From positions 1 through 38,251 of the forward strand of contig JANSXG010000010.1 in NCBI GenBank assembly GCA_024743075.1: 38,251 nt of DNA, read 5' to 3'. The position numbers were made by a program, and so were the translations under genes. The notes below the pieces were generated by a model. The model did no database searches. It had not been told where the DNA came from and was given only the letters and a program-made list of their open reading frames with translations. This document shows, piece after piece, positions 7,607 through 36,322 of this stretch (position 1 is the stretch's first letter; every line of letters begins with the position of its first letter). The stretch comes from a bacterium (GTDB lineage: Bacteria > Planctomycetota > Phycisphaerae > Phycisphaerales > UBA1924).

Positions 7607-9256
7607 TTACGGGCAGGTCTGCCCGAACGCGCCGAGCACGGCGTTCAGGTCGGCGAGATCGACTTGGCCGTCGCCGTTCGTGTCGCCGGAGTCGGTGGTC
7701 TGGCCGAAGTTGCCGAGCACGAGGTTGAGGTCGGCGAGGTCGACGAGGCCGTCCGCGGTTACATCGCCGATGCAGGGGCAGCTGGCGGTGAGCCGCACCC
7801 GTCGGTCTTCCTCAAGCGGGAGTTCGATCTCGCCTCCCGCGGCCGACACAAAGAACCAACTATCCATGCCTTCGATGGTTGGGTTGCCCGTGAACACGTC
7901 GCTGAAACGAACGTCCACGCTCCAGGACCCCGGAAGCGGGCCCGCGGCGAAGCCGTCGGTGTTCGGTGACACCCAGCCGTGGCGAACTTCGAGAAGCGAG
8001 GTGCCCTCGCCTCGGTATCGGTCGCCGGGGTCGTCCGTCGCGGTGACCACCGGCATGATTCCTTCAAACTCCAGCACCATTTCGGCACGTCCGCCCCCGT
8101 TTGGGCCGACCACGTCGTGGACGACCAGCAGGTTGATACCACCTGCGCCCACCGTCAGGAAGAGGTGCGATCGGTCCAGAGTCAGCGTTGGGACCGCTCC
8201 GTGGTAGTACTCCTCGCCGTTACTCCAACCGTAGTAACTCTCAATGCTGGTTGGGAGAACAAACGGCGTGACGCTGGATGAGACCTCGGTGAAATCGCCG
8301 CTGTCGGGTGCGGTCTCTATCGCGATCGACCAGGTCACCGCACGCGACGACGGCGAAACAACTTCATCGGTCGTCACCTCCCGTTCGAGTGCGTCGCGGA
8401 CGACGGCTCGGTAGCGCAGCCCGTTGACGACCGGAGCCTCAAGGCTGAACGCTCGCTCACCCTCCATATCGGCAAACTCTCCGTCCTCGCTCGCCTGTTG
8501 CCATTGCACGCTCGGGGCCAAAAGACCGCCCTCCGGCACGAGCGTGATCGGGAAGGTGTCACCGAAGCACGCGCCCGTTGGCGGCGAGGCCCCGAGCGTG
8601 ACGGACGGTGCGGGCGGCACCGAGTCGGGCCAGAAGTTGTCGAACGCGAGTCCGACATTCCCGACATTGCCCGTGTACCGCAGCACGATGTAATGAATGT
8701 CGGCCTGATCTCGGTCGAACGCGAAGCCCAACGCCGTCGCGTCTCCGGGGCCGTGGTTGTTAGTGCACACATCATCGCCAACCGGTGCGGTGAGCACGCG
8801 CGCCTCGAGCACCTGCATGGAATCGTCGAGCGCCTCGACGGTCCACTCCTCGAAGTTGCCGCCGGAGCGCCGGTCGACATCGAGGACGACGCCGGCGGCT
8901 TCGCTCACAGGGTCGACATAAGTCAGGAGCAGCGTGCCGGGCTCACCGGAGACACTCGCATCGTCGGTGAGCAATGTGTCGCCAGTTGTGGTCAGCGCGA
9001 AAGGAGTGTCCGGGCCGCAGCCGTCGAACGCTGTCCGTGGTGCACCGACCTTGGCGATCAGCGGCGAGCCAACCGGGGCGAGCGTCACCGGGTCGACAAG
9101 GTCAAACCGAACGCCGAACTCCGCAAGGAACTGATCTGAAATCGGAGCCAGGTCATCAGTCGGCAGGCCGCCGGGCAGCGACTCGAAATCAATAACCTGC
9201 GCATGAACGGTTGCACAGGCGCATGCGACGACAGCGCATAAGAGAGTTTCTTTCAT
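7607..9256 (-). CDS. Secreted GC-type dockerin domain-anchored protein
   Basis: 549 residues, unknown function, exported. The N-terminus MKETLLCAVVACACATVHA is a Sec signal peptide. The body has beta-rich sequence without a recognised catalytic motif; residues around VTLGASPPTGACFGDTFPITLVPEGG to VVRDALEREVTTDEV look Ig-like. The C-terminal 60 residues form a paired Ca-binding tail: CPCIGDVTADGLVDLADLNL, then SGDTNGDGQVDLADLNAV and a final GAFGQTCP. This is the Phycisphaerales 'GC-type dockerin' arrangement with flanking Cys residues. A GGAGGAG Shine-Dalgarno precedes the ATG. The tail is nearly identical, also at DNA level, to that of the neighbour at 9380-10204. Confidence 0.85.
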   Translation of the reverse strand: MKETLLCAVVACACATVHAQVIDFESLPGGLPTDDLAPISDQFLAEFGVRFDLVDPVTLAPVGSPLIAKVGAPRTAFDGCGPDTPFALTTTGDTLLTDDASVSGEPGTLLLTYVDPVSEAAGVVLDVDRRSGGNFEEWTVEALDDSMQVLEARVLTAPVGDDVCTNNHGPGDATALGFAFDRDQADIHYIVLRYTGNVGNVGLAFDNFWPDSVPPAPSVTLGASPPTGACFGDTFPITLVPEGGLLAPSVQWQQASEDGEFADMEGERAFSLEAPVVNGLRYRAVVRDALEREVTTDEVVSPSSRAVTWSIAIETAPDSGDFTEVSSSVTPFVLPTSIESYYGWSNGEEYYHGAVPTLTLDRSHLFLTVGAGGINLLVVHDVVGPNGGGRAEMVLEFEGIMPVVTATDDPGDRYRGEGTSLLEVRHGWVSPNTDGFAAGPLPGSWSVDVRFSDVFTGNPTIEGMDSWFFVSAAGGEIELPLEEDRRVRLTASCPCIGDVTADGLVDLADLNLVLGNFGQTTDSGDTNGDGQVDLADLNAVLGAFGQTCP

Positions 9257-15335: not shown

Positions 15336-15436
15336 TGCGGACCGGCCTCGGGTCGGTCCCTTTGCTCGTTTTGGAACAATCGACCCCGGCGATGGGACTT
15401 TCCCCCGCCGCCCACTGACGGTGAAGCACCCCCGCG

Positions 15437-17308
15437 ATGGCCGAAATCAAGCCAATCCTTGCCCTCGACCCAACCCTCGGCGAAGAGGGCTCGTGCCCCG
15501 AAAACCCGGTTATCCGGAACTTTTCGATCATCGCGCACATCGACCACGGCAAGTCCACGCTGTCGGACCGGCTGCTGCAGTCGACGAACGCGATCACGGA
15601 GCGCGAAGCGCGGGAACAGATTCTCGACTCGATGGACCTGGAGCGCGAGCGCGGGATCACGATCAAGGCCTCGGCGGTCTCGGTGCGTCACGTGCACAAC
15701 GGCAAGCACTACCTGCTGAACTTCATCGACACGCCCGGGCACGTGGACTTTTCGTACGAGGTGAGCCGGGCGCTGACGGCGTGCGAGGGAGCGGTGCTGG
15801 TCGTGGACTCGACGCAAGGAGTCGAGGCCCAGACGGTCGCCAACACATACCTAGCGGTGAACAACAATCTCGAGATCATCACGGTCATCAACAAGATCGA
15901 CCTTCCGGCGGCCGAGCCGGACGAGCGGGCCATGGAGGTCGAACAGGTCCTCGGCTTTCCGGCCGAGGAGGCCATCTTCGTCTCGGCGAAGTCCGGCCAG
16001 GGTATTCCGGAACTGCTTGAACGGATCTGCGAGGTCCTGCCCTCGCCGCGTGAACAGCAGACGAAGCGGACGCGGGCGCTGATCTTCGACTCGCACTACG
16101 ACGATTATCGCGGCGTGGTGGTTTACATCCGTATGTTCGACGGCAAGCTGAGCGTGGGCGACAAGGTCCGCATGATGGGAACCGGGCGGACCTACACGGT
16201 GACCGAATTGGGCAAGTACACGCCCAAGCCTCAGAAGGTGACTACGCTCGGCCCGGGCGAGACGGGGTACCTGATTGCGAACATCAAGGCGCTGGCGGAC
16301 GTCCGCGTCGGCGACACGATCACGCAGGAACTGGAACCCGCTGAGAAGGCGCTGCCGGGTTACGAAGAGCCGCGACAGATGGTGTTCTGCGACTTCTACC
16401 CGGCGACGACCGAGGACGGGAAGGGCCAGAACTTCGAAGACCTGCGCGAGGCGATGGAAAAGCTCGCGCTCAACGACGCGAGCTTCACGTACCACGCGGT
16501 GCACTCGGAGGCGCTCGGTTTCGGGTTCCGCTGCGGGTTCCTCGGGCTCCTGCACATGGACATCATCCAGGAGCGCCTGGAGCGCGAGGGCGGCGTGGAG
16601 GTTGTCCAGACCGCGCCCAATGTGACGTACGAGCTGCTCAAACGCGACAAGGAACTCGTCGAGATTTCGAATCCGGCCGACCTGCCGGACCCGTCGTTGT
16701 GGTTGGAACTGCGCGAGCCCATCGTCCGAGTCGAGTTGATGATCAACACGGATTCGGTCGGCGACATCATGGCGCTCTGTCTGAGCCGGCGCGGCGAGTT
16801 CAAGTCGCAGCAGGCGGTCAGCGAGATGCGTCAGTTCATGACGTGGGAGATGCCGCTGGCGGAGATCATCTATGACTTCTACGACAAGTTGAAGTCGATC
16901 ACCCGCGGCTACGCGACGATGGACTACGAGATCATCGGCTTCCGCAAGGAAAACCTTTCCAAGGTGGACATCCTGATCAACGGCGAGATCGTCGAGGCGC
17001 TGTCGTTCATCAGCCACCGCGACACCGCCGACAAGCGCGGGCGTGCGCTTCTGAACAAACTCAAGAAGCAGATCGATCGCCACCAGTTCGAGATCCCGCT
17101 GCAGGCAATCATCGGTGGCAAGATCATCGCCCGCGAGAGCATCAAGGGCGTGCGCAAGAACGTCACCGCCAAGTGCTACGGCGGTGATGTGTCACGAAAG
17201 CGCAAACTGCTGGAGAAGCAGAAGAAGGGCAAGAAGAAGATGAAGTCCATCGGGAGTGTGAACATCCCGCAGGAAGCCTTCATGGCGGTGCTCGATACCA
17301 GCGAGTGA
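15437..17308 (+). CDS. lepA: Elongation factor 4 (back-translocating GTPase LepA)
   Basis: 623-residue translational GTPase that remodels ribosomes stalled in elongation or assembly. The G motifs are complete: AHIDHGKSTLSD (G1, about residue 35), ERGITI (G2), DTPGHVDF (G3) and NKIDLP (G4). The EF4-specific C-terminal domain is present (VDILINGEIVEALSFISHRDTADKRGR, then KIIARESIKGVRKNVTAKCYGGD and a Lys-rich end QKKGKKKMKSIG). An N-terminal extension of about 25 residues precedes the G domain. The first ATG in frame is used; no strong Shine-Dalgarno. A stand-alone gene here, without the lepB neighbour found in many proteobacteria. Confidence 0.97.
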   Translation: MAEIKPILALDPTLGEEGSCPENPVIRNFSIIAHIDHGKSTLSDRLLQSTNAITEREAREQILDSMDLERERGITIKASAVSVRHVHNGKHYLLNFIDTPGHVDFSYEVSRALTACEGAVLVVDSTQGVEAQTVANTYLAVNNNLEIITVINKIDLPAAEPDERAMEVEQVLGFPAEEAIFVSAKSGQGIPELLERICEVLPSPREQQTKRTRALIFDSHYDDYRGVVVYIRMFDGKLSVGDKVRMMGTGRTYTVTELGKYTPKPQKVTTLGPGETGYLIANIKALADVRVGDTITQELEPAEKALPGYEEPRQMVFCDFYPATTEDGKGQNFEDLREAMEKLALNDASFTYHAVHSEALGFGFRCGFLGLLHMDIIQERLEREGGVEVVQTAPNVTYELLKRDKELVEISNPADLPDPSLWLELREPIVRVELMINTDSVGDIMALCLSRRGEFKSQQAVSEMRQFMTWEMPLAEIIYDFYDKLKSITRGYATMDYEIIGFRKENLSKVDILINGEIVEALSFISHRDTADKRGRALLNKLKKQIDRHQFEIPLQAIIGGKIIARESIKGVRKNVTAKCYGGDVSRKRKLLEKQKKGKKKMKSIGSVNIPQEAFMAVLDTSE

Positions 17309-25551: not shown

Positions 25552-25624
25552 GGCCCCGTAGCTCAGCGGTTAGAGCAGACGACTCATAATCGTTTGGTCC
25601 TCGGTTCGAATCCGAGCGGGGCTA
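25552..25624 (+). tRNA. tRNA-Met (CAT), elongator type
   Basis: All arms fold: acceptor GGCCCCG/CGGGGCT (G-U at the first pair), D stem GCTC/GAGC, anticodon stem GACGA/TCGTT around loop CTCATAA with anticodon CAT, T stem CTCGG/CCGAG around TTCGAAT. 73 nt, discriminator A, no encoded CCA. The close match of the D and anticodon arms to bacterial elongator tRNA-Met argues against initiator; tRNA-Ile2 (CAT) cannot be fully excluded. Its 3' half (from 25580) is supplied by the integrated element. TACCAT (25537-25542) is a possible -10 box. Confidence 0.92.
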
Positions 25625-27081
25625 TTCCGGTTCTGGCGTGCGCCGGTGTGCGCAGAGCCGCCTAAACCGTGCGCCCTTGCCGACTTACGCTCAGCACCAG
25701 AGAGCCGCAGCGTGCTCGCCGGTTGTGCGCCCGTGTGCGCCACTTTGTGCCCGTTTGCGCCCCCGTTGTTGGCGCAGTTGTTGGCGCAGTTGTTGGCGCG
25801 CGTCGTGGCGCTTTGTGGGGGGACGGTATCGCCGGTGCCCGTTGCCATCGCCACCGCCTCAGCGGGTTTCTCGCGCTCAGCGAGAGCAGGCAGAGCATCC
25901 AGAGCGCGCCGCGAATCGTTCAACCCGAGCCGGGTGTAGGTGCCCAGCGTCAGCTTGGGATCGGAATGCCGGGCCAGTTCCTGCGCCACCTTCGCATTCG
26001 CACCACCAGCGATCAGGTGGGTGATATAGCTCACGCGCAGCGCGTGAAAGTCCACCGCGCGCCCAGCGTCATCGCTCACCCGCAGCAGACCCGAGCGATA
26101 CCGCCTCAGACGCTCCGCCAGCGGCAGCAGATTCTTCGCGCCGTCTTTCTCTCGGCACCACTGAGCGCGGGAACGCCGTATATCCCGCCGCACAGCGTCA
26201 GCAGTCCGCCCAGGCAGCCGCAGTGCCTTCGCACCGCCCCGAATGCCCTCAGCGTCAAAGTACGCCCTCAGCCAGTCCGCCAGCTCTCGCCGGATCGGTT
26301 GATAGGTTGCAGTGCGATTCTTCGCGTTTGCAGCCCCGAGCCGAACCGTGCAGCTCGCTAGGTCAAAGTCCGCGCGCGTCAGTGCCGCCAGTTCACCGGC
26401 CCGGAATCCGGTGCCCAGCGCCACCCGGTACACCGCAGCCCGCTCGCGGCCCGTAGTGCCGCCGTACACCGGCCCGGATTCCTCCACCCAATGCACCAGC
26501 AATTCGGCTTCCTCGGGGGTCAGCGCCCTACGCTCGCGCCGCTTGTCGGCTTCCTCGCGGATCGTCGGCAGGTGGGCAAGCCGATCCTCGCGGGTCAGCT
26601 TCGAACGGTATGCCCAGCGTGCAAACCCTCGCAGCGCCGTGCGCCCGTAGTTCACCGTTCGCGGGGCCAGCCCCTCGGCGATCATCGCACCCATCGCGGT
26701 CTGTACGGTTTTCACCGATAACCCCGAGATCCGCTCGATACCGCCCCGCTCCACCAGCCGCAGCGCCGCCGCGTGCATATTCCTCGGGTGTGTCGGCGTG
26801 CCGCCCTTCGCGCTCAGGTGGTCGCGCCACGCTTTCAGGTGGTCCGCAATCGGCAACAGGTCCGCATCCCGGTACGCCTCAGAGTCCGGGTCGATCAACC
26901 CTGCCGAGCGCTGCGCTTCCTCATCAACCCAGCGGTTGAGAATCCGCCGCGCGCTCGCCTTGCAGGTCGTCCGGGTGCTCTTGTATTTCCGCTTGCCATC
27001 GTGCCCGGTATACGCCCCCCACCACGGCCCAGAGCCGCCGCGTTGATAGAGCGTTCCGCTTCCGTTTGCTGTCTTAGCCAT
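25570..27081 (-). CDS. int: Tyrosine-recombinase integrase, 3' end formed by host tRNA in the integrated state
   Basis: 503 residues from ATG 27081 (AGGA 4 nt upstream); the open frame beyond to 27252 is unlikely. An AP2-like/SAM-like N-terminal region (GSGTLYQRGGSGPWWGAYTGHDGKRKYK) precedes the core-binding domain and the catalytic domain. The catalytic set is complete: Arg227 (GTGFRAGELAALT), Lys254, His346/Arg349 (HALR), His372 (ARHSD), Tyr382 (GTYTRLG). After Tyr382 comes an unusually long 120-residue tail with Asn-Asn-Cys-Ala repeats (429-439). It ends NSPARIRTEDQTIMSR encoded by the att core, then Leu-Leu-stop from host tRNA sequence. The frame stays open across the core into the other end of the element, see 32900-33127. 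Confidence 0.93.
   Translation of the reverse strand: MAKTANGSGTLYQRGGSGPWWGAYTGHDGKRKYKSTRTTCKASARRILNRWVDEEAQRSAGLIDPDSEAYRDADLLPIADHLKAWRDHLSAKGGTPTHPRNMHAAALRLVERGGIERISGLSVKTVQTAMGAMIAEGLAPRTVNYGRTALRGFARWAYRSKLTREDRLAHLPTIREEADKRRERRALTPEEAELLVHWVEESGPVYGGTTGRERAAVYRVALGTGFRAGELAALTRADFDLASCTVRLGAANAKNRTATYQPIRRELADWLRAYFDAEGIRGGAKALRLPGRTADAVRRDIRRSRAQWCREKDGAKNLLPLAERLRRYRSGLLRVSDDAGRAVDFHALRVSYITHLIAGGANAKVAQELARHSDPKLTLGTYTRLGLNDSRRALDALPALAEREKPAEAVAMATGTGDTVPPQSATTRANNCANNCANNGGANGHKVAHTGAQPASTLRLSGAERKSARAHGLGGSAHTGARQNRNSPARIRTEDQTIMSRLL
25580..25626. repeat. attL: left 47-bp att core
   Basis: Identical to 33120-33166. It begins at the anticodon stem (CGACTCATAATCG, a small inverted repeat around the anticodon loop) and runs through the tRNA 3' end plus TT. 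The tRNA stays intact on this side because the core restores its 3' half. Confidence 0.95.
25765..25800 (+). repeat. Three tandem 12-bp repeats, left arm
   Basis: GTTGTTGGCGCA at 25765, 25777 and (last base G) 25789. The same unit occurs twice at 33041-33064 on the other side of the att core in the circular form, in the same orientation. Within int it encodes the Asn-Asn-Cys-Ala repeats. Candidate arm-type integrase-binding sites. Confidence 0.7.
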
Positions 27082-27165
27082 CGTTTCCTGCCTTCCTCGC
27101 GGCCTGCCGCCGCGTCTCAACACTACAACCATTCCGGGCAGCGCGCCATTGTGGAGCCGCCCACC

Positions 27166-27182
27166 GTGTCTACGAAACCCCC
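27166..27182 (-). repeat. 17-bp inverted-repeat partner, upstream of int
   Basis: On the minus strand GGGGGTTTCGTAGACAC, identical to the plus strand at 32286-32302. It lies 85 nt upstream of the int start in the 113-nt gap between int and its neighbour, so it may be an int promoter or operator element. Confidence 0.6.
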
Positions 27183-27194
27183 AATTCGCGCTCG

Positions 27195-27521
27195 CTAGCC
27201 GGGGTTTCCATTCGCTCGGGGTACATCCGGCACCGCCCGAGCGCTCAACCACACCGCACCAGCAAGCTCGGCATCCTCAGCAGCGATCCGCTCCGCGAGC
27301 GCTCGCAGGTCCGTAGGTCCGAGCACCGGCCCGAGTCCGTCCAGGTCCGCAAGCAGCAGCACCGCCCGCAGGCACAGCCGCCGCTCAGCAGCCGCCTCAG
27401 CGACTCGCTCGGGCAGCGTGCCCTTCACCTGCACCGCGTCACCAGAGAGCCGCAGAGCCGCCCCAGCGTCCGCGAGCATCCTCAGCAGTTCAGGCAGCGC
27501 CAACATCGCGCCACCCGTCAT
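27195..27521 (-). CDS. Small TubC N-terminal docking-like protein
   Basis: 108 residues from ATG 27521; ATG 27506, with GGGTGG 4 nt upstream, is an alternative start. The first 60 residues (LPELLRMLADAGAALRLSGDAVQVKGTLPERVAEAAAERRLCLRAVLL) follow the alpha-beta-beta-alpha pattern of the TubC_N docking fold: leading helix, short G-D strand, then an 'LPERVAEAAAERR' helix. The second half is a helical region with ALAERIAAEDAELAGAVWLSARA. In phages and elements such domains are found next to or fused with primases, perhaps as an interaction tag. It overlaps the primase 3' end by 32 nt (or 17 nt), so it is probably co-translated with it. Confidence 0.6.
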   Translation of the reverse strand: MTGGAMLALPELLRMLADAGAALRLSGDAVQVKGTLPERVAEAAAERRLCLRAVLLLADLDGLGPVLGPTDLRALAERIAAEDAELAGAVWLSARAVPDVPRANGNPG

Positions 27522-29553
27522 CGTCGCCGGTGATTCGTTTCGTCCGTATAGAGTCAGCCGCGATTGAAACGCATTTTGAACGGCTGAACATATGAGCGTC
27601 GCCCTTCTTGCCAGTACCCGAACGGTTCCAGCGTCCCGCTTTCGCGCCTTCGGCAAGCAGTTCTCGGAGTCTTGTCTTTCCTACCGACTCGCGCACCTCG
27701 GCATGGATCGCGTCAAAGTCCACCTGAGCGCCATCCTCGGGTAACGCGTTGCCGATCAATCGCATCAGGTCATCGGCTTTGACCTCAGCCGGTCGGCCTG
27801 AGACTGAGTACCCGTCGCCGCTAAAGTCGAGAATGACCTCGGCTTCAGTGTCATCGAATCGCCCTTGATAGGACAGTCGCCGCCGGGTATCCGTTTCCTC
27901 TTCCGGCCTGAAGCGTGTGAGGGTGATTATCGCATCCGGGAATCCAGCGATAGCGTTGCTCCCGCGCGCGCCTTCACCGAACGCGCCACCGCCCTTTCGA
28001 TCATGATGAACCAAGATCACCGCCGCGCCCGTGCGAGTGATTCGACGGATCGGCATCAATGCTGCATTGACCTCCGCCGCCGCGTTCTCGTCTCTGACGG
28101 GCCACAAGTTGGATAGCGTGTCCAGAACCACCACAGCGGCCCCAAGTTCCTCCACACGCCCAGCGATACGCTGAATCGCATCTTCCCATTGAGCAGCGGT
28201 CGGCTTTGCCATGAACGGGGACGCGATCACCCGGATCAGATCGGGGTCGAGTCCGAACGCGTCCCGATGCCGGGACCACTGGCCAGCCGATTCTTCGGAC
28301 ACGATCAAAGTAGGGGCTTCCAGCGGCGGCCTCCCGACCATGCCTCCGCCGCCGTACAGGTCTTTCAGGATCGACCGAATCAGGGTTGTCTTTCCGGCCT
28401 TTGGAGCAGCAGAGAACAGCGTGATACAGCCCCTCGCCGCGTACCCTCGCCAGATCCAGTCCGGCGGTTCGGACGGTCCAAGTTCGCCCAGCGGTACATC
28501 GCGCAGGGCATCAGGATTCGTTTCGTTCGCGGGGGTGTCTATACGGTCGAAACGCATTTTGTCCTGATTGGACGGCTCCACCGAGTGCGCGAACAAGTCG
28601 AAGTGCGCTCTGAGCAGCGCGCCTCCGGCCTCGCCATGCTCGTGATAGAACGCGCGTAAGTCTTTCGCATTCGCGGGGGGCATACACCAGCGCACCGGCC
28701 TCCCCCACCGCTCAGCGAGCGTTCTCGCCACGCTCTCGGCACCATCGCGCCCCGGCCATTGCTCGGCACCCCTTTCGTCGGTGCGCCGATCATTCTCGCC
28801 GAGCACCAGCACGCCCCGAGCGTCGCGCAGCAGGTCGGCAAGGTCATCGGCTCCCGCTTTATTGCTCGGGCGCGCCACCGCCTGCAATCCCATCGCCACA
28901 CCGGCAGCGGCATCGCTCGCACCTTCGCAGACCACCACCAGCGGCGCGCTCAGGTCCGTTCCGCTCGGCACCGTCAGCGCTCGGCGCAGTCCGGTCTTTT
29001 CGCGGCTCGGCGCGCCCTTCCGTCCGTCCAGCGGTCGCAGGCCCAGCCCCACCATCCGCCCCGCACCGTCCCGTTCGGGGAACGCATACGCGCCATCGGG
29101 GTAGCCGCGATCCCATCCGGCACCGTACGCGCCCATCGCTCGCAGGTGCTCGGCATCGCACCAGCCGGGGCACAGCGTTCGCACCGCCTCCGCAGGAACG
29201 CCCAGAGCGTCCACCAGAGCCGCGAGCCGCTCGGAAGTGAGTCTCGCCACCGCCTCGGCATGCAACCGCTCAGCGTCGATTCTCGGGCGCTTGTGGGCGT
29301 TGCTCGGCTTGCTCGCCGGTGTCGGCTTGCGATTGCCTCGCCAGTCTGAGCCGCTCGCCTCCTCGGGGGTCCAGTCCTCGAAACCGTACATCGCGCCGCC
29401 CTCGGCATCGCTCGATATGCGCCGCATACCCTCGGGAGCATCGCCACCGCGCATGCACCGCAGGCGCTTCCGATCCGGGGACCACGCGCACCAATCCGGC
29501 TTGCCGCAGGCGGGGCAGGGATTCGCCTTGTTCACAGCGTGCCATCCGCTCAT
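27490..29553 (-). CDS. Primase-helicase: CHC2-like zinc finger, Toprim, RecA/RepA-like ATPase
   Basis: 687 residues. N-terminal zinc ribbon with Cys residues NPCPACGKPDWCAW and RLRCMRGG (residues 12-35). A Toprim domain follows at about 205-300: LVVVCEGASDAAAGVAMG supplies the acidic Glu and LVLGENDRRTDERGAEQWPGRDGAE the Asp set. Then a RepA/KaiC-like ATPase: Walker A SAAPKAGKTTLI near 380, Walker B VVVLDTLSN near 470, and VILVHHDRKGGGAFGEGARGSNAI. The C-terminus is a small helical domain. This is a self-sufficient replication initiator module of satellites and phages. The ATG overlaps the stop of the upstream gene (ATGA), so it sits in a tight replication operon. Confidence 0.9.
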   Translation of the reverse strand: MSGWHAVNKANPCPACGKPDWCAWSPDRKRLRCMRGGDAPEGMRRISSDAEGGAMYGFEDWTPEEASGSDWRGNRKPTPASKPSNAHKRPRIDAERLHAEAVARLTSERLAALVDALGVPAEAVRTLCPGWCDAEHLRAMGAYGAGWDRGYPDGAYAFPERDGAGRMVGLGLRPLDGRKGAPSREKTGLRRALTVPSGTDLSAPLVVVCEGASDAAAGVAMGLQAVARPSNKAGADDLADLLRDARGVLVLGENDRRTDERGAEQWPGRDGAESVARTLAERWGRPVRWCMPPANAKDLRAFYHEHGEAGGALLRAHFDLFAHSVEPSNQDKMRFDRIDTPANETNPDALRDVPLGELGPSEPPDWIWRGYAARGCITLFSAAPKAGKTTLIRSILKDLYGGGGMVGRPPLEAPTLIVSEESAGQWSRHRDAFGLDPDLIRVIASPFMAKPTAAQWEDAIQRIAGRVEELGAAVVVLDTLSNLWPVRDENAAAEVNAALMPIRRITRTGAAVILVHHDRKGGGAFGEGARGSNAIAGFPDAIITLTRFRPEEETDTRRRLSYQGRFDDTEAEVILDFSGDGYSVSGRPAEVKADDLMRLIGNALPEDGAQVDFDAIHAEVRESVGKTRLRELLAEGAKAGRWNRSGTGKKGDAHMFSRSKCVSIAADSIRTKRITGDDDGWRDVGAA

Positions 29554-29894
29554 GCCGCACCGCCTTCCTCGGCGTAGCACGCAAGCACGAACACCCGAGC
29601 CGGGCAGCCCGTCCGCGTCGGTCGTGTTTCTCCGTTCGGCCTCAGCAGTCCGGCGCGTTCCAGGTCCAATCGGCGCGGGCCTACACACTGCACCGGCAGC
29701 CCGAGCAGGTCAGCGCATTCCTCAGCGGTCAGCCCTCGCGGGCCTGCCTCGGCGTAAGCATCAAACACCTGCCGCCGCCGCTTGCCCGCGCTCTTGCCCG
29801 CCACGCTTGCCGCTCGCCAGCTTGTTCCCGGCGCGCTCGCTCTGGTCGGTGGAGTGTTGAAGTTGATTCCGTCCAAGGGGTGTTGCTCGCTCAT
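29550..29894 (-). CDS. Small winged-helix protein
   Basis: 114 residues. An N-terminal disordered basic stretch (APGTSWRAASVAGKSAGKRRRQ) leads into a wHTH: RQVFDAYAEAGPRGLTAEECADLLGLPVQCVGPRRLDLERAGLLRPNGETRPTRTGCPARVFVLA. The 'GLT-EE-A-LLG-P ... RR-L---GLL ... R-T-TG-PA-V' layout recurs in phage wHTH proteins beside primases. Both ends share ATGA overlaps with neighbours. Presumably DNA-binding, in replication or control. Confidence 0.75.
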   Translation of the reverse strand: MSEQHPLDGINFNTPPTRASAPGTSWRAASVAGKSAGKRRRQVFDAYAEAGPRGLTAEECADLLGLPVQCVGPRRLDLERAGLLRPNGETRPTRTGCPARVFVLACYAEEGGAA

Positions 29895-30178
29895 CGCGTA
29901 CCCCCTTCCCGGTCAGGGCAACCGGCAGCAACCCATGCTCGGATCGACTCAACGGAATAGAGCGTGCGGCTCCCGATCTTCACCGTGCGGATCAGCTTGC
30001 GGTTTCCAAGTTCCCACGCCTTCCGCCCACCCACGCCGAGCATCGCCGCAGCTTGCTTTCGGTCTATGAGCAGCGGCTCAGGTGGGGTACAATCAGCGTG
30101 TGTAGTATTCGTCCCCGTTCCGCCTGCCAGCTTGCGGGGGCTTTGCTTGGGGGTCAGGGGGGGTACGCGCTCAGGCAT
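29891..30178 (-). CDS. AlpA/excisionase-type HTH protein 1
   Basis: 95 residues. After a Pro/Thr-rich N-terminus, residues about 37-90 form a MerR-like/HTH_17 domain: LLIDRKQAAAMLGVGGRKAWELGNRKLIRTVKIGSRTLYSVESIRAWVAAGCP. This is the classic AlpA/Xis layout (helix-turn-helix then a beta wing with R-LYSVESIRAW). In integrative elements such proteins are excisionases or activators. The ATG (30178) overlaps the previous stop by 8 nt; the longer frame to 30226 would overlap more and is not preferred. Confidence 0.8.
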   Translation of the reverse strand: MPERVPPLTPKQSPRKLAGGTGTNTTHADCTPPEPLLIDRKQAAAMLGVGGRKAWELGNRKLIRTVKIGSRTLYSVESIRAWVAAGCPDREGGTR

Positions 30179-30371
30179 CGCGGCCCCCTTCCTCGGCGTT
30201 GCGGGTGCGAATCGCATCCACAACATCGGGCAGCCGAAACCTGCGCACCTTCCGAGAGAGTCGCAGCACCGGGATACGCCCAGCCCGCGTCCACCGATTG
30301 ACAGTTCCCACGCTCACGCCCAGCTTTGCAGCCAGCCCGCGAGCGTCCAGTAGTTCAGCGTGTGGTTCCAT
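30171..30371 (-). CDS. AlpA/excisionase-type HTH protein 2
   Basis: 66 residues, nearly all one HTH_17 domain: LLDARGLAAKLGVSVGTVNRWTRAGRIPVLRLSRKVRRFRLPDVVDAI. The N-terminal segment RGLAAKLGVSVGTVNRW is the recognition helix-turn-helix, and the basic wing RKVRRFR follows. A good GGAGG is 4 nt before ATG 30371. First gene of the replication operon and a natural candidate for recombination directionality factor or operon regulator. The repeats at 30424-30488 lie directly upstream. Confidence 0.82.
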   Translation of the reverse strand: MEPHAELLDARGLAAKLGVSVGTVNRWTRAGRIPVLRLSRKVRRFRLPDVVDAIRTRNAEEGGRDA

Positions 30372-30423
30372 TGAACCTCCGAGAGAAAGTTGCGGGGGTT
30401 TCCGCCCCTTATCTCCCGGCAGG

Positions 30424-30488
30424 TATGCGCATCGGGCAGCGCATATCAGCGCATACCCCCCATAAACACTACGAATCCGCCGCGCATA
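30424..30488. repeat. Iteron-like GCGCATA repeats upstream of the replication operon
   Basis: On the plus strand AGCGCATA at 30438-30445 and 30448-30455 (10-bp period), CGCGCATA at 30481-30488, and the inverted TATGCGCAT at 30424-30432. They lie in the 120-nt gap in front of the HTH-primase operon. Either operators of the HTH proteins or iterons of an origin used by the primase-helicase. Confidence 0.55.
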
Positions 30489-30491
30489 CCG

Positions 30492-31691
30492 TCATTCGTC
30501 ATCGCTCGCATTTTGCCGCTCTTTCGCGCGCTGAGCGTATCCGGTCGCCTCCACACGCCGCCCCATTTCCAGCGTGTGCGGGTCCATCGTTGAGATTTTC
30601 GCTGGGGTGTTGGGCAAGGTTTTTTCCACAATGGCTTGCGAACCGCTCGCCTCGGTGTGCTCCCTAGCTTGCTTCAGGAATCGGGATATTTTCCACTGCT
30701 TATAGTCTGTGCCGTACTGGCTGTTCAGCATCTCAGCGACTCGCTCTTGTGAGTATCCAGAGACTTGATATAGCCGCCATGCCTCCATCGCGTGCGGGTG
30801 CAACTCGGGCAGCTTCTTAGCGGGATGCTTGCCCTTCCGCTCGGGTTCACTGGCTCCACCCCCCGCCACCGCATCCCCAGCCCTGATTCGATTCTGTACC
30901 CCCTGCATCGCTTCCATCGGCTTCTCTAGCTGCTTTACGATTGCCACCGGGTCTGAGGGAGTCATCGTGCAGGCGAGCCGTACAACCGTCCACGCTCGCC
31001 GCAAGTTCTCGGAAGCTTCGAATAGGTCCGCACGCTGTTTCGTTTTTGCGTGCTCTGCAATCCATTCCACACGCTTCAGCGCTTTCTCGGAAGCTTCAGC
31101 ACAAACAGCCGCGTTCTCTTGCCAGACCGCCAGCCCCTGCTCTGCGATCCTCGCAACCTTGCTGAAGTAAACCCACAGCCCCCCGGCCATCTGATCCAGT
31201 TCTGTCATTTTCGCCACTGCTTCCGCATTCATGGTTTCGACCGCATCCCGCGCCGCGTCAGTTGCTCTCCGAATCCGCTCAGCGTCCAGAGTGAGCACTA
31301 TGCCGGGCGTGCTACCTCGCAAGGCATGATCGAATGACATCCAAGCTTGGGTTAGCTCGGGCGCAGCTTTCGCAATATCTACCCGCCCGAAACCCACCAC
31401 CGCCTCAGAGAGCCGCTCACACCACTCCCTCGCCTCTTTCAGTGTTCGATCACCGACGGTGCTCAACTCCCGTTCCCGCACCTCGATGCGTCCCCGAGCG
31501 TCTAAGTCCGCTATGCCCCTTGTCCAGGCCCGTTTCTCGGAAGAAGTTCCCGGCGGGGCGGGTGCTTTCATCCTTTGCGATCTGGCCTCGTAATCAGCAA
31601 CTCGCTCAGCGATTCGCTCGGCATTGAAAGCAAGCGCTTTTAGAGCCGATACAGCGTCCAACACCGCGCGCAGCTTCGAATCCGGTTCCAT
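30492..31691 (-). CDS. Element-encoded protein with C-terminal HTH, function unknown
   Basis: 399 residues. The first 250 residues are mostly helical and charged, with coiled-coil character (LKALAFNAERIAERVADYEARSQRMK, DAERIRRATDAARDAVETMNAEAVAKMTE, EKALKRVEWIAEHAKTKQRADLFEASENL). Residues about 300-350 look like an HTH of the resolvase/Sigma4 style: HPHAMEAWRLYQVSGYSQERVAEMLNSQYGTDYKQWKISRFLKQARE. The basic C-terminus (MGRRVEATGYAQRAKERQNASDDE) is also seen, in my recollection, in other planctomycete element proteins. It may be a regulator or origin-binding protein; no enzyme motif is visible. A divergent 260-nt gap (31692-31951) separates it from the next gene. Confidence 0.65.
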   Translation of the reverse strand: MEPDSKLRAVLDAVSALKALAFNAERIAERVADYEARSQRMKAPAPPGTSSEKRAWTRGIADLDARGRIEVRERELSTVGDRTLKEAREWCERLSEAVVGFGRVDIAKAAPELTQAWMSFDHALRGSTPGIVLTLDAERIRRATDAARDAVETMNAEAVAKMTELDQMAGGLWVYFSKVARIAEQGLAVWQENAAVCAEASEKALKRVEWIAEHAKTKQRADLFEASENLRRAWTVVRLACTMTPSDPVAIVKQLEKPMEAMQGVQNRIRAGDAVAGGGASEPERKGKHPAKKLPELHPHAMEAWRLYQVSGYSQERVAEMLNSQYGTDYKQWKISRFLKQAREHTEASGSQAIVEKTLPNTPAKISTMDPHTLEMGRRVEATGYAQRAKERQNASDDE

Positions 31692-31951
31692 CTGGCCTGC
31701 CTTTCAGTGCGGCAGCCGCAGCCCGGACAAGGCAGGTAGTCCGGGCCACGGCTCACCGCGTCGCCGGGGATCAACCGGCGCGAACAGTGTACCCCCCCTA
31801 TTCGAAAACTCGCACCAGATTCCGTGCAGTTACGCCGCCGGTCCCGCGAGAGCATCGGACCAGATATTCAACCCCCCCTCCCCTGTTCGGCTGTAGACTT
31901 GCTCACAGTGTCTGCGGATAAGACAACCCGCAGGCATGAAAGGCAGCGAGC

Positions 31952-32263
31952 ATGGCACACTACCTCGTCACCGTAGTTCACAAGGCATCGGGCAAACGCT
32001 CGGAAGTCCCGATTGAAGCGCGAAACCGCGCCGCAGCATTTGAACTAGCAGACCAGAACCCGGAAATTATGGCAGGCGCTGTTAGGGATATGCCGGACGG
32101 ATGGGGTGAGCAACAGCCAAAAACAGATAACCCGGACCCAGCAGTAGCGGCACTCATGGAATCAAATCGGCGGCTCCGCCAGATTCTGATTCTTCTGGTG
32201 GTTGTGCTTGTCGCAATTCCGATCCTGTTCGGAATCATCTTCACAATCGCCGCAGCCACATAA
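31952..32263 (+). CDS. Small tail-anchored membrane protein (element cargo)
   Basis: 103 residues, function unknown. The N-terminal 50 residues make a small alpha/beta unit (YLVTVVHKASGKRSEVPIEARNRAAAFELADQNPEIM). A Pro/Asp-rich linker follows and then one C-terminal membrane helix (ILILLVVVLVAIPILFGIIFTIAA, about 78-101). AAAGG precedes the ATG by 8 nt. It is the only plus-strand gene of the element and has a lower GC content than the replication block, so it may be a separately acquired cargo gene. Confidence 0.6.
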   Translation: MAHYLVTVVHKASGKRSEVPIEARNRAAAFELADQNPEIMAGAVRDMPDGWGEQQPKTDNPDPAVAALMESNRRLRQILILLVVVLVAIPILFGIIFTIAAAT

Positions 32264-32285
32264 CCGCAGCTCAGAGCGTCCGGCG

Positions 32286-32302
32286 GGGGGTTTCGTAGAC
32301 AC
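32286..32302 (+). repeat. 17-bp inverted-repeat partner, between two convergent cargo genes
   Basis: GGGGGTTTCGTAGACAC, the same 17 bases as at 27166-27182 in opposite orientation, again in an intergenic spot. Function unknown. Confidence 0.6.
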
Positions 32303-32339
32303 TAGGCAGTGGGAGAGTCAGGATCGGAAGTCCTGCCTT

Positions 32340-32765
32340 TCAGTCCTGCTTCTTCGAATGCTCCATGTCATCTAGCGACCAGAGATCAGCAATGAGAACA
32401 TGGTCAGCATCAAACAGTTGGATTGTTGGCACACCATCCACAAACCTGAAGTGCAGATACTGGGCTTCTTCGCCGTCAGCAAATATCAATCCGCGCAACG
32501 AAAGTTCCGATGGAACCCCAGACGCCGATTGACGCGCTTCCACGATGGTGCGATAGAGCGACTGTCGGCGAGCTGGAGACAGTTTCGTTTCTGGCGAAAC
32601 GGCCCCAGACTCCGCTTGAGGCGGTACCGTCTCCGATTGCTCCGTCGCGCTGTTATCTGGTGCTATCTTGCCCGCCTGCAGCATGAAGCGAAGCTGAACG
32701 CCAAGCACGATCACTTGGAGTATGCCGACAGCGATGAGAATTGCGGGAATCTTCTTAGTCGCCAT
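32340..32765 (-). CDS. Small N-anchored protein (element cargo)
   Basis: 141 residues from ATG 32765 (GGGGT 7 nt upstream). One N-terminal membrane helix (IPAILIAVGILQVIVLGVQLRFML) is followed by a polar linker and a compact C-terminal domain: SELSLRGLIFADGEEAQYLHFRFVDGVPTIQLFDADHVLIADLWSLDD. Function unknown. It converges with the 31952 gene; GC content is low compared with the chromosome. Confidence 0.58.
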   Translation of the reverse strand: MATKKIPAILIAVGILQVIVLGVQLRFMLQAGKIAPDNSATEQSETVPPQAESGAVSPETKLSPARRQSLYRTIVEARQSASGVPSELSLRGLIFADGEEAQYLHFRFVDGVPTIQLFDADHVLIADLWSLDDMEHSKKQD

Positions 32766-32899
32766 CAATTGACCCCGTAGCACCGGTAATGCTGCAATCT
32801 GGGCACCATCTGCTCAAGTCGTTTACTGCGGGCAATTCTCACTGAATTGCGTAGCGCAGCGTAGCCCATCGTTGGAGAGCCCCGCAAGGCAGAGAACCC

Positions 32900-33127
32900 C
32901 TACGCTCCGGCGGCCTGAACCAGCGTCACCACAGCAGCGCGGATCGGCTCGGGCAGGTCCGCCCAGCGCTCCACCACCTGTCGCAGGTCAGCGGGCATCG
33001 GCTCCGCGTGCGGCGCTACAGTCGGCGGTTTTTCGTGTCCGTTGTTGGCGCAGTTGTTGGCGCGCGAATCCGCACCCTCAGAAGTGTCGGTATTATCGCC
33101 ACTTACAGAGTCGGGCAATCGACTCAT
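32900..33127 (-). other. Detached 3' coding segment of the integrase (used only in the circular form)
   Basis: 75 codons open in the same frame that int uses through the att core: MSR from the core, then 72 residues not present in the integrated int. It contains SRANNCANNG (matching the int Asn-Asn-Cys-Ala repeats) and ends ADLRQVVERWADLPEPIRAAVVTLVQAAGA-stop. This helix (W-LPEPIR-A-V-LV) is, in my recollection, a frequent C-terminal element of planctomycete integrases. In the chromosome it lacks a promoter or upstream partner. On excision the joined attP would fuse it to int, giving 573 residues. Confidence 0.8.
33041..33064 (+). repeat. Two tandem 12-bp repeats, right arm
   Basis: GTTGTTGGCGCA at 33041-33052 and GTTGTTGGCGCG at 33053-33064, the same unit as at 25765-25800. 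About 56 bp from the attR core. They encode the Asn-Asn-Cys-Ala motif of the detached integrase tail. Confidence 0.7.
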
Positions 33128-33166
33128 AATCGTTTGGTCCTCGGTTCGAATCCGAGCGGGGCTATT
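33120..33166. repeat. attR: right 47-bp att core
   Basis: Second perfect copy of the core. It is the original chromosomal tRNA 3' half, now displaced 7.5 kb from its 5' half. It is preceded by element DNA (TCGGGCAAT) and followed by chromosomal DNA. Confidence 0.95.
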
Positions 33167-33249
33167 TGCCTGGAAGGTCCGTGCAGACGGTTCCGAACCC
33201 CTTCCTGTGCCGAATCTCGAAGCATCTTCTCCGGGCTTCCAGCATCTGT

Positions 33250-33277
33250 TTGCCCCATAATTCTGTGGATGTAGACT
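33250..33277 (+). promoter_or_regulatory. Candidate promoter of the FG-GAP protein gene
   Basis: TTGCCC (33250-33255), 16-nt spacer, TAGACT (33272-33277). This leaves a leader of about 40 nt before ATG 33325. Confidence 0.45.
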
Positions 33278-33324
33278 GCTCGAAGGAGCCCGACGCGAGA
33301 GTCCCGCTTCCAGGAGGAGATCCC

Positions 33325-35667
33325 ATGCGCCACTTGACCTGCTTCTTCGTGGCCGGAGTGCTCAGCGGGCCGCTCGCCGCCCGCGCTTCGGACTGTATCG
33401 GCTTTCTGCCACCGACCGCGGCCTATCCGGTTGGAGCGGTCCCGACAGAGGTCCGGTTCGCCGATCTCGACAACGATGGCGATCCGGACGCGATCACGAC
33501 GAACGTCGGCGCCGATTCCGTCTCGGTCCTGCTGAACTGCGGATTCGGTCTGTTCGAACCCGCGGTTGACTATCCGACGGGTCCGCAGGTCGCCGGTTTG
33601 GCGACCGCTGATATGGACGGCGACGGTTTCCAGGACATCCTCGTTGTCAGCGCCGACAAGTTTCAGGACCTGATCATCTTCTTCAACAACGGTGACGCGA
33701 CCTTCGGTGCGCCGACCACTACCGGAGTGCTCGACGATCTCGCTGCGCTCGCCACGGCCGACGTTGACGGAGACGGAGACATCGACGTCGTGGCCGCGAA
33801 CCGCGGCGGAACGCTGGACATCTACCGCAACAACGGGACGGGCGGCTTCTCCGGGCAGACCAACATCAATGTCGGAGGCCAGCCCGAAGATGTCCTCATC
33901 GCCGACTTCAACAACGATTCTCGCCTCGACCTCGCGTGCATCGATGTCGGTAATTCCACCATCATCCTCCGGATCCAGAGCTTCAGCGGCGGGTTCTTGC
34001 AGTCCGTCACTCTCAATGTCGGCAACACCCCGACCCGCTTGCACGCCGACGATCTGGACGGGGACGGCAGTCTGGACCTGATCGCATCTCAGTTCGGCGC
34101 GGGCGAGATCAGCATCTTTTACAACGAAGGCGGGCTGAACTTCTCGCTGGAAGACGTTATCGGCGTTGCCGACGGACCCGTCGGCATCACTAGCGCGGAC
34201 TTCGATGCCGATGGCGATACGGATCTAGCGGTCGCCAATGAGCAGTCAGCACAGATCGCTGTGCTCAACAACGAAGGCGCCCGAACATTCAGCGCGCAGT
34301 ACATCGACCTGGGAACATCTCCGTCGGGCGTTGCGGCGGGCGACATCACGCAGGACGGGCTTGCCGAACTCGCGGTGACCGACCCGACCGATGGATCGCT
34401 CACGTTTCTGTTCAACCGAGGCGGCGATCTCCATGAGCAACTGCAAGGCAATCGCCCCTTCAAGGTCGCCTCTGGTGATTTCGACAACGATGGTGACCTC
34501 GATGTGGTTGCTACAGCGGTCGCCGACCCCGTAGTCCACATCTATGAAAACAGCGGTGGATGGCTCCTCGCGGCCAACCCCCTCGCTTCGCCGGCGCCTT
34601 CTCTCGATGTCAAAGTCGCGGACCTCGATCACGATGGCAACGAAGACCTCGTTCTCGTTCATCCCACGGATCCGCCGCTGGTCAGCATCCATATGGGCAA
34701 CGGCGATCTCACCTTTCAGTCTCCCCAGTCCAGCGAGTTCGGCGCATCCTCAGGTCAAGCCGCTGTCATCGCCGACTTTGACGGCGACGGAGATCCTGAC
34801 ATCGTCGCCGTTTGTCTGTTCCCGGGCGGGAAAGGATTTGGTGCACAGTTGTTTCTCAACGACGGATTCGGTGCGTTCTCGCTGTCTGGAGGCGTACAGG
34901 ACGCTTTGTTTCGAGACCTTGACGCCGGGGACCTGGACGGCGACGGCGACATCGATCTGGCCATCGCCCGACAACGCGGTGGCGCAATCAACGAACCTCC
35001 GGGAGGTGTCGATGTGTATCTCAATGACGGCGCTGGAAACTTCAGCTTCAGCGCGACGTATCTGATGGGATCCCTCGGCCGGGGCGTGCGTGACGTGGTT
35101 CTCTCGGACTTGGACGACGACAGGATTTTTGACATGGTCGCATTGAACCGCGAATCGGGTTTCGAGACGGTGGAGGCGTGGATCGGGCTCGGGGATGGCA
35201 CGTTTTCAAGTTCGATCACACTCGTCGCGGGAGGCAGCCCGTTTGCCGTCGAATCCGGAGATTTTGACGGAGACAACGACCCCGATGTGGCGTTCACATG
35301 CCTCGACGAAGGCACAGCAACGGTCCTCCTCAACGATGGCGAAGCATTCTTCAGTTTGCTCGACCAGTACGAGGTCGGGACGGACCTCCGCGGCTTGCAC
35401 CCAGCCGACATCAACGGTGACGGCGCTGCAGACCTCGTCGTGGCGAACGAAAACAGCGCCGAATCCGCCATCACCGTCCTCTACAACGCCAGGCCCGGCT
35501 GCCCGAGCGATCTCGACGGATCCGGCTCAACCGACCTCGCGGACCTGAACGCCGTGCTCGCGAGCTTCGGCTCCGCTGACGAGACCGCGGACACCAACGG
35601 CGACGGCATTGTCGATCTGCAGGATCTGAACCTGGTGCTCGGCGCCTTTGGGACCGCCTGCCCGTAG
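33325..35667 (+). CDS. Secreted FG-GAP/VCBS repeat protein with GC-type dockerin tail
   Basis: 780 residues, AGGAGG 7 nt before the ATG, signal peptide MRHLTCFFVAGVLSGPLAARAS. The body holds about 13 repeats of a Ca-binding blade of form D-x-D-x-D-G-x-x-D (for instance DLDNDGDPDAI, DMDGDGFQDIL, DFDGDGDPDIV, DLDGDGDIDLA), each spaced about 50-60 residues. This matches FG-GAP/VCBS-type beta-propellers of exported proteins. The C-terminus is the paired dockerin tail (GCPSDLDGSGSTDLADLN ... DTNGDGIVDLQDLN ... FGTACP). Probably a surface adhesion or binding protein. It is the first chromosomal gene right of the element. Confidence 0.88.
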   Translation: MRHLTCFFVAGVLSGPLAARASDCIGFLPPTAAYPVGAVPTEVRFADLDNDGDPDAITTNVGADSVSVLLNCGFGLFEPAVDYPTGPQVAGLATADMDGDGFQDILVVSADKFQDLIIFFNNGDATFGAPTTTGVLDDLAALATADVDGDGDIDVVAANRGGTLDIYRNNGTGGFSGQTNINVGGQPEDVLIADFNNDSRLDLACIDVGNSTIILRIQSFSGGFLQSVTLNVGNTPTRLHADDLDGDGSLDLIASQFGAGEISIFYNEGGLNFSLEDVIGVADGPVGITSADFDADGDTDLAVANEQSAQIAVLNNEGARTFSAQYIDLGTSPSGVAAGDITQDGLAELAVTDPTDGSLTFLFNRGGDLHEQLQGNRPFKVASGDFDNDGDLDVVATAVADPVVHIYENSGGWLLAANPLASPAPSLDVKVADLDHDGNEDLVLVHPTDPPLVSIHMGNGDLTFQSPQSSEFGASSGQAAVIADFDGDGDPDIVAVCLFPGGKGFGAQLFLNDGFGAFSLSGGVQDALFRDLDAGDLDGDGDIDLAIARQRGGAINEPPGGVDVYLNDGAGNFSFSATYLMGSLGRGVRDVVLSDLDDDRIFDMVALNRESGFETVEAWIGLGDGTFSSSITLVAGGSPFAVESGDFDGDNDPDVAFTCLDEGTATVLLNDGEAFFSLLDQYEVGTDLRGLHPADINGDGAADLVVANENSAESAITVLYNARPGCPSDLDGSGSTDLADLNAVLASFGSADETADTNGDGIVDLQDLNLVLGAFGTACP

Positions 35668-35731
35668 TTTCTCGTCACCCACCATCACACCGGAGACAGC
35701 TAGGGATCGACTTCCCAACGCACGGAGCACC

Positions 35732-36322
35732 ATGAACCCCCAACCGAGCGGACAGTCCGGCCCCGGAGCGTTCACAGCGCTGTTGAGCCGCGCTTCCGAC
35801 GGTGACTCTCAGGCGATCGAGTTTCTGCTGCCCATCGTCTACGACGAACTCCGCTCGCTCGCGTCGGCGTACTTCGCCGAAGAGCGTCGCAACCACACCC
35901 TTCAGCCGACCGCGATCGTCCACGAAGCATTCATCCGGCTCGCGGGAGCCGGCGATTTCTCATGGAACGACCGCAGCCACTTCTTCCGCGCCGCAGCGCT
36001 CGCGATGCGTCGAGTGCTGGTGAACCACGCCCGAGACCGAGGGCGGCTCAAACGCGGAGGCGGGCGGCGGGCTCATCCCCTCGGCGACGAACCGCAGTCT
36101 TTCGAAGCGTTGTCCAGCCTCGACCTGCTGGCCCTCGATGACGCCCTCACGGAACTCGGCCGCGTTGACCCGCGCAAAGAGCAGGTAGTGCAGTTGCGGT
36201 TCTTCGGCGGTTGCTCCATCGAAGACACGGCCAGACTGCTGGAAGTTTCTGAAGCCCAGGTCAAGAGAGACTGGGTCGCCGCGAGAGCATTCCTGATCAC
36301 TCAACTCAAAGAGTCCGAATGA
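35732..36322 (+). CDS. ECF-type sigma factor, TIGR02999-like
   Basis: 196 residues. Region 2 is recognisable (FLLPIVYDELRSLASAYFAEE, HTLQPTAIVHEAFIRLAG, SHFFRAAALAMRRVLVNHAR) and region 4 holds the HTH (VVQLRFFGGCSIEDTARLLEVSEAQVKRDWVAARAFL). 'HTLQPTAIVHEA-IRL' is the mark of the planctomycete/acidobacterial family. GGAG stands 4 nt before the ATG. The stop overlaps the kinase start in ATGA; this sigma-kinase pairing is common in planctomycetes and suggests phosphorylation-linked control instead of an anti-sigma factor. Confidence 0.92.
   Translation: MNPQPSGQSGPGAFTALLSRASDGDSQAIEFLLPIVYDELRSLASAYFAEERRNHTLQPTAIVHEAFIRLAGAGDFSWNDRSHFFRAAALAMRRVLVNHARDRGRLKRGGGRRAHPLGDEPQSFEALSSLDLLALDDALTELGRVDPRKEQVVQLRFFGGCSIEDTARLLEVSEAQVKRDWVAARAFLITQLKESE

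Follow-up and report, generated by a model that had tools for sequence, protein, structure and literature searches.

A 38,251-nucleotide stretch of planctomycete DNA (Phycisphaerales, UBA1924; assembly GCA_024743075.1, contig JANSXG010000010.1), referred to here as the window, almost certainly contains a 7.5-kb integrative element whose attP attachment site (att), a core with arm sites on either side, is embedded in the 3' region of its own tyrosine-integrase gene, int, as judged from sequence. Comparison with related elements indicates that integration swaps the C-terminus of the integrase, and that the longer protein encoded before integration is a real form of the enzyme. The arrangement is found in most of 125 sampled planctomycete integrases and is widespread in planctomycetes, and it leaves a conserved hairpin attached to the integrase only in the unintegrated state.

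The element is bounded by two identical 47-bp cores, at 25580..25626 (attL) and 33120..33166 (attR). An intact tRNA-Met(CAU) gene on the forward strand (25552..25624; ARAGORN; 70.6 bits with Rfam) is the integration target; its 3' part is the left core and is supplied by the element. The attR region holds a tRNA-like remnant (33089-33164, 25.9 bits). The glnA-tRNA-Met site is empty in four relatives (L326, L329, L330 and L331) and holds other integrases in two (L327 and L328), which identifies it as a real integration site.

The int gene lies on the reverse strand and starts with an ATG at 27081. Its integrated, short form of 503 residues (25570..27081) reads the core antisense as NSPARIRTEDQTIMSR and terminates inside the tRNA gene as ...QTIMSRLL-stop at 25570; the Arg codon spans the core edge, and the final Leu-Leu-stop is host tRNA sequence. 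At the second core, the frame stays open for 72 codons past the Arg (32903..33118, reverse strand), a detached 3' end that encodes a linker and the conserved hairpin motif DLRQVVERWADLPEPIRAAVVTLVQAAGA and finishes ...LVQAAGA. Rejoining the ends of the element in silico gave an uninterrupted int frame of 573 residues, compared with 503 when integrated. An initial annotation of this DNA had proposed an open int frame through the 47-bp core, a chromosomal end in Ser-Arg-Leu-Leu-stop, a 72-codon continuation ending in Gln-Ala-Ala-Gly-Ala at the other att copy and a 573-residue protein upon circularization, and its coordinates and reconstruction proved correct to the base. The encoded protein is a tyrosine recombinase (PF00589 Phage_integrase, residues 187-385, E 3.4e-15), in which the catalytic residues R227, K254, H346/R349, H372 and Y382 occupy invariant alignment columns. 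The catalytic domain ends near residue 385, and the core-encoded residues start near residue 485.

Taken alone, the open frame of the window is not remarkable, because at least 72 open codons follow downstream of 32% of the positions within the element. It is the relatives that make it non-accidental. These were sought in 397 genomes of the class and found in 108; up to 20 kb was fetched around each, the second core was located and the junction was rebuilt. The junctions of split elements are reconstructions, and many of the genomes are draft metagenome-assembled genomes. Many of the related integrases end within antisense tRNA genes and a few within sense ones. The homologues do not all end before the core, as the initial annotation had allowed for: 94 of the 125 distinct related integrases at genome loci reach 10 nt or more into an RNA gene, and a minority end earlier. 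A repeat overlapping a tRNA was present in 23 elements, and the integrase crosses it in 22 of them; in L057 the repeat lies outside the int open reading frame (ORF).

Past the core, a C-terminal motif approximating AW..LP..IRA.I.AMV.A was found in the integrase frame of 21 of the 22 crossing elements and in the other two frames of none. In L050, the sole crossing element without a detected motif, unread bases adjoin the core and appear as X in the translation. The 21 motif-bearing elements target tRNA genes with Arg, Ser, Lys, Cys, Thr, Met, Gly and Ala specificities, in antisense orientation in 19 cases and in sense in two. Antisense cores are translated in differing frames across elements; thus, the core peptide itself is not conserved, only its openness. 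The window tail scored 39.7 bits (E 2.4e-10 over 1.03 Mb) with a model from which it had been left out, and the closest relative of the window integrase (L236, about 50% identity) also occupies a tRNA-Met site and has a reconstructed long form of 546 residues with the motif. In a FastTree tree with long branches, tails are scattered across the family, and the integrase of Myxococcus phage Mx8 is remote. Four sense-oriented elements (L090, L111, L126 and L139) form a separate observation: there the core or a fragment ahead of the tail corresponds to the 5' half of a tRNA, and it would be the target gene's 5' part that the element replaces.

The long form also occurs naturally without any reconstruction. 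Catalytic domain, tRNA-like core and tail lie in one frame in L180, L181 and L215, all on viral contigs, and in L297, from a planctomycete genome. These natural long homologues are unbroken at the core, where the initial annotation had considered that a frame break might appear. The L180 and L215 contigs carry terminase genes, and the L181 contig carries terminase and major head genes. The L180 contig, a 43-kb phage, has a 127-bp direct terminal repeat and is therefore probably complete and circular; the parts of it that were read hold a single copy of the core and lack a tRNA gene. With the window integrase as sole query, no relatives were found in viral contigs, and in collections of phage and plasmid records only the catalytic part was matched, and weakly. 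A further candidate long form, L161, joins catalytic domain, core and tail in a single frame, but as an N-truncated remnant it was left uncounted.

L297 can be set beside L299, with which it shares 83% DNA identity over most of int. L297 has the tail, and thus the long form, and no tRNA gene, whereas L299 terminates within a tRNA-Arg(ACG) gene. Their cores derive from different tRNA sequences, tRNA-Arg ACG in L299 and apparently tRNA-Arg CCT in L297, so the two are relatives in two states and not one element seen twice. The pair suggests retargeting through exchange of the att-bearing 3' end of the gene.

Searching with the tail motif by itself, with no regard to integrases or tRNAs, led to the same arrangement. 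Tails turned up in 69 of the 121 genomes from the order and in 67 of the 294 in a phylum sample. Among 58 tails examined, 46 had a tRNA or transfer-messenger RNA (tmRNA) fragment within 350 nt upstream, compared with two in a downstream control and none in a shuffled one, and in 41 the tail frame was open into the RNA-gene fragment. Mismatches within the motif were distributed over the three codon positions as 0.43, 0.30 and 0.60, a pattern that reads as that of a conserved protein. The genome of the window itself holds a second such element (L173; G000:C27:5000-24999), which is 8.2 kb long, occupies a tmRNA gene encoding the tag AEPQFAMAA and has a 24-bp core; its int (15400-16836) and tail (near 8488-8937) match in frame.

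These comparisons bear directly on the simplest alternative, that the open frame through the core is a chance read-through in G+C-rich DNA. The frequency of long open stretches within the element favours that explanation, as do the antisense frames of tRNA 3' parts, which frequently lack stops, at a rate close to that of shuffled sequence. An unusual scarcity of stops in tRNA 3' parts, which would favour the intragenic arrangement, was considered and discarded: the share of tRNAs with open antisense frames is 59-76%, against about 60% for shuffled sequences, which is not striking. Against chance stand the motif, which 21 of the 22 elements carry in the integrase frame and none carries in any other, the unsplit natural homologues and the outcome of the tail-first search. 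At the level of sequence, chance read-through is refuted by these comparisons, and we give it practically no weight.

A predicted structure of the L180 integrase shows how the long form may be organized. An N-terminal fold and the core-binding and catalytic part extend to about residue 420; residues 424-531, which include those encoded by the core, are disordered, and a confident two-helix hairpin follows at 538-569. The predicted local distance difference test (pLDDT) score is 92-94 for the hairpin and about 30 for the linker, which is also unconserved in the alignment. In Foldseek comparisons the body of L180 groups with lambda Int and other tyrosine recombinases. In the model, the disordered linker could be the place where the protein tolerates being encoded by attP DNA.

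The DNA flanking the core carries further signs of a recombination site. In the window, a 26-bp direct repeat, CGCGCGCCAACAACTGCGCCAACAAC, occurs 176 bp before the core (25777..25802) and 53 bp after it (33041..33066), both copies on the reverse strand, and these are putative left and right arm-type sites. The left copy encodes ANNCANN of the linker. Most relatives similarly have a direct repeat common to both flanks, as a rule 130-190 bp ahead of the core and 45-75 bp past it. These repeats are unrelated to that of the window, and one copy often falls in another frame than its partner. The shared sequence averages 14.2 bp between matched flanks and 8.3 bp between mismatched ones, and inverted repeats between flanks showed no excess. 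The direct repeats look like the arm-type sites of a lambda-like, heterobivalent integrase. The Asn-Asn-Cys-Ala repeat that the initial annotation saw on both halves of the protein is present as ANNCANN on both sides, but its reading as a shared protein feature is not supported; it is better read as a DNA arm site.

Several observations weigh against a general role for the tail or limit the evidence for it. Some relatives end shortly past the catalytic domain, with a short C-terminus and no tail, before any core is reached; thus, the tail is not required by every relative. In L121, L123 and L140, int and tail are adjacent and in different frames; these are perhaps stacked or decayed elements. 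The motif model was built partly from 16 of the 21 elements tested, and the independent tests are those on later elements and on the window. Finally, comparison of the hairpin tail with Pfam, PHROGs, NCBIfam and PDB sequences yielded nothing convincing. The detached tail had been taken at first for a normal integrase C-terminus, and this holds in part: it is a conserved integrase C-terminus, but of the planctomycete family and not of integrases generally.

Between int and the detached tail, the element (27493-32783) encodes a primase/helicase-like replication protein (27493..29556; AAA_25, phrog_239), two HTH_17 (helix-turn-helix) proteins resembling excisionases or regulators (29894..30226 and 30174..30371; both phrog_66), of which the latter is a candidate directionality factor, and genes of unknown function; all three named genes lie on the reverse strand, and no capsid gene was recognized in this interval. 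This gene content looks satellite- or plasmid-like. Just beyond attR, positions 33166-35667 encode a large repeat-rich protein with many repeats of the D-x-D-x-D-G type, followed at 35648-36322 by a sigma-factor-like ORF, both named by eye.

Taken as a whole, we regard as probable an explanation in which attP is intragenic, the hairpin is carried by the circular-state integrase, the tail is lost upon integration and the exchange has a proposed directional role. In the circle, the gene would encode a long enzyme composed of a lambda-Int-like body, a disordered linker that doubles as attP DNA and a terminal hairpin, and this hairpin-bearing enzyme would perform integration. Insertion into tRNA-Met would leave the codons for the hairpin at the opposite end of the element, and Int would then stop inside the host tRNA gene. 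The tail may aid the integration reaction, for example, through contacts between Int molecules or between Int and accessory proteins, and the tail-less form may be less active or biased towards excision, which would stabilize the integrated state. Excision, probably with one of the two phrog_66-type proteins, would restore the long form. Since the hairpin is conserved and is fused to Int only in the circle, it presumably matters there, unless it acts as a separate peptide. On the directional role of the tail in particular, for which the argument is one of analogy, we consider the case evenly balanced. The initial annotation's proposal that the swap acts as a sensor of integration state is likewise one that we infer by analogy with Mx8.

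A different account of the same facts assigns the exchange no regulatory role. The integrase gene and attP would form a compact module that travels and evolves as a unit, and the tail would serve activity in the circle, its loss after integration being merely tolerated. The entire attP, arm sites included, does lie within the int coding region, the linker is disordered and unconserved, and archaeal suicidal integrases have been described as compact all-in-one modules (PMC8371274). On the other hand, the integrated form of the Mx8 integrase is reported to be less active or altered. The conservation of a tail joined to Int only in the circle argues for its importance there, but does not imply selection for losing it. 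We hold this account to be a minority possibility of some substance.

The remaining alternatives concern the fate of the tail itself. It could be expressed alone from attR once the element has integrated, as a small peptide with a regulatory function, and the window does have an in-frame ATG in the core just ahead of the tail (ORF 32900-33127). This ATG, however, has its origin in the Met anticodon region, the majority of elements sit at RNA genes of other kinds, and in the natural long forms the conserved unit is fused to Int; such a peptide is therefore improbable. Alternatively, the long C-terminus could be a degradation tag that leaves only the integrated form stable. In phages with integration-dependent immunity, the repressor gene holds attP and the unintegrated form carries a C-terminal degradation tag, so the logic is an established one, and the window tail ends ...AAGA. 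However, tail ends elsewhere have no residues in common (KRDR, GGAQ, NPEK, RSGG, ESTE, EGRP, ASKA, SAIR, GGQQ, KVEL and others), the host tmRNA tag AEPQFAMAA is unlike the tails, and the conserved part is a folded hairpin situated before the end. A degradation tag was rejected on the non-conserved tail ends and is, in our estimate, even less probable than the separate peptide.

A broader reading, put forward tentatively and with somewhat more doubt than conviction, is that an ancient hairpin tail common to planctomycete phages and small elements, present on Int only when the element is circular, sets the direction of recombination at many RNA genes. Under the broader reading, and just as tentatively, the recombinase would rewrite its own regulatory end and would be a bacterial counterpart of the archaeal suicidal integrases. 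The arrangement also accounts for a class of small orphan ORFs beside tRNA fragments in planctomycete genomes, and with dozens of natural variants, control of integration direction through self-editing becomes testable.

Attachment sites within the cognate integrase gene were found in very few elements in a 2016 survey (PMC4701971), and a 2021 review described suicidal integrases as exclusively archaeal (PMC8371274). In these archaeal SSV1-type integrases, the att site likewise lies within the integrase gene, which integration alters. There, however, integration divides an N-terminal part from the catalytic one and leaves the gene disrupted (PMC8371274), whereas in the planctomycete elements the catalytic domain stays intact and only the tail is swapped. 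In streptococcal integrative and conjugative elements at rumA (PMC4701971), the 3' end of the integrase gene is also exchanged and the C-terminus changed; those enzymes are serine recombinases with a protein-gene target, unlike the tyrosine recombinases with RNA-gene targets described here. Mycobacteriophages BPs and Brujita also have attP in a gene whose protein receives an altered C-terminus upon integration, but that gene encodes the repressor and not the integrase. The likeness to phages with attP inside a repressor gene drawn in the initial annotation is fair as logic, as BPs illustrates, but does not extend to a C-terminal degron, of which there is no sign in the planctomycete tails.

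The closest parallel is Mx8, a phage with a tyrosine integrase, attP inside the coding sequence and a new, shorter C-terminus upon integration. According to reviews that cite Tojo 1996 and Magrini 1999, integration substitutes 13 residues for 112 C-terminal ones (PMC4701971), and the prophage form of the integrase is reported to be altered and less active (PMC6070905; PMC4701971). Mx8 Int (AF396866) also contains an antisense-tRNA-like peptide, STGLEPVLLGSF, in its C-terminal part. However, its tail scores 0.6 bits against the hairpin motif, i.e. does not match it, its catalytic part is remote (highest identity 26%), and the planctomycete trait spans many RNA targets, both orientations and the whole phylum. 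As compared by sequence, the planctomycete arrangement is the Mx8 principle with an unrelated tail. No published description of the planctomycete case was found in a limited literature search. The principle of an intragenic attP is already known, with Mx8 as its best-known precedent; the planctomycete form, with its previously unnamed hairpin, is new.

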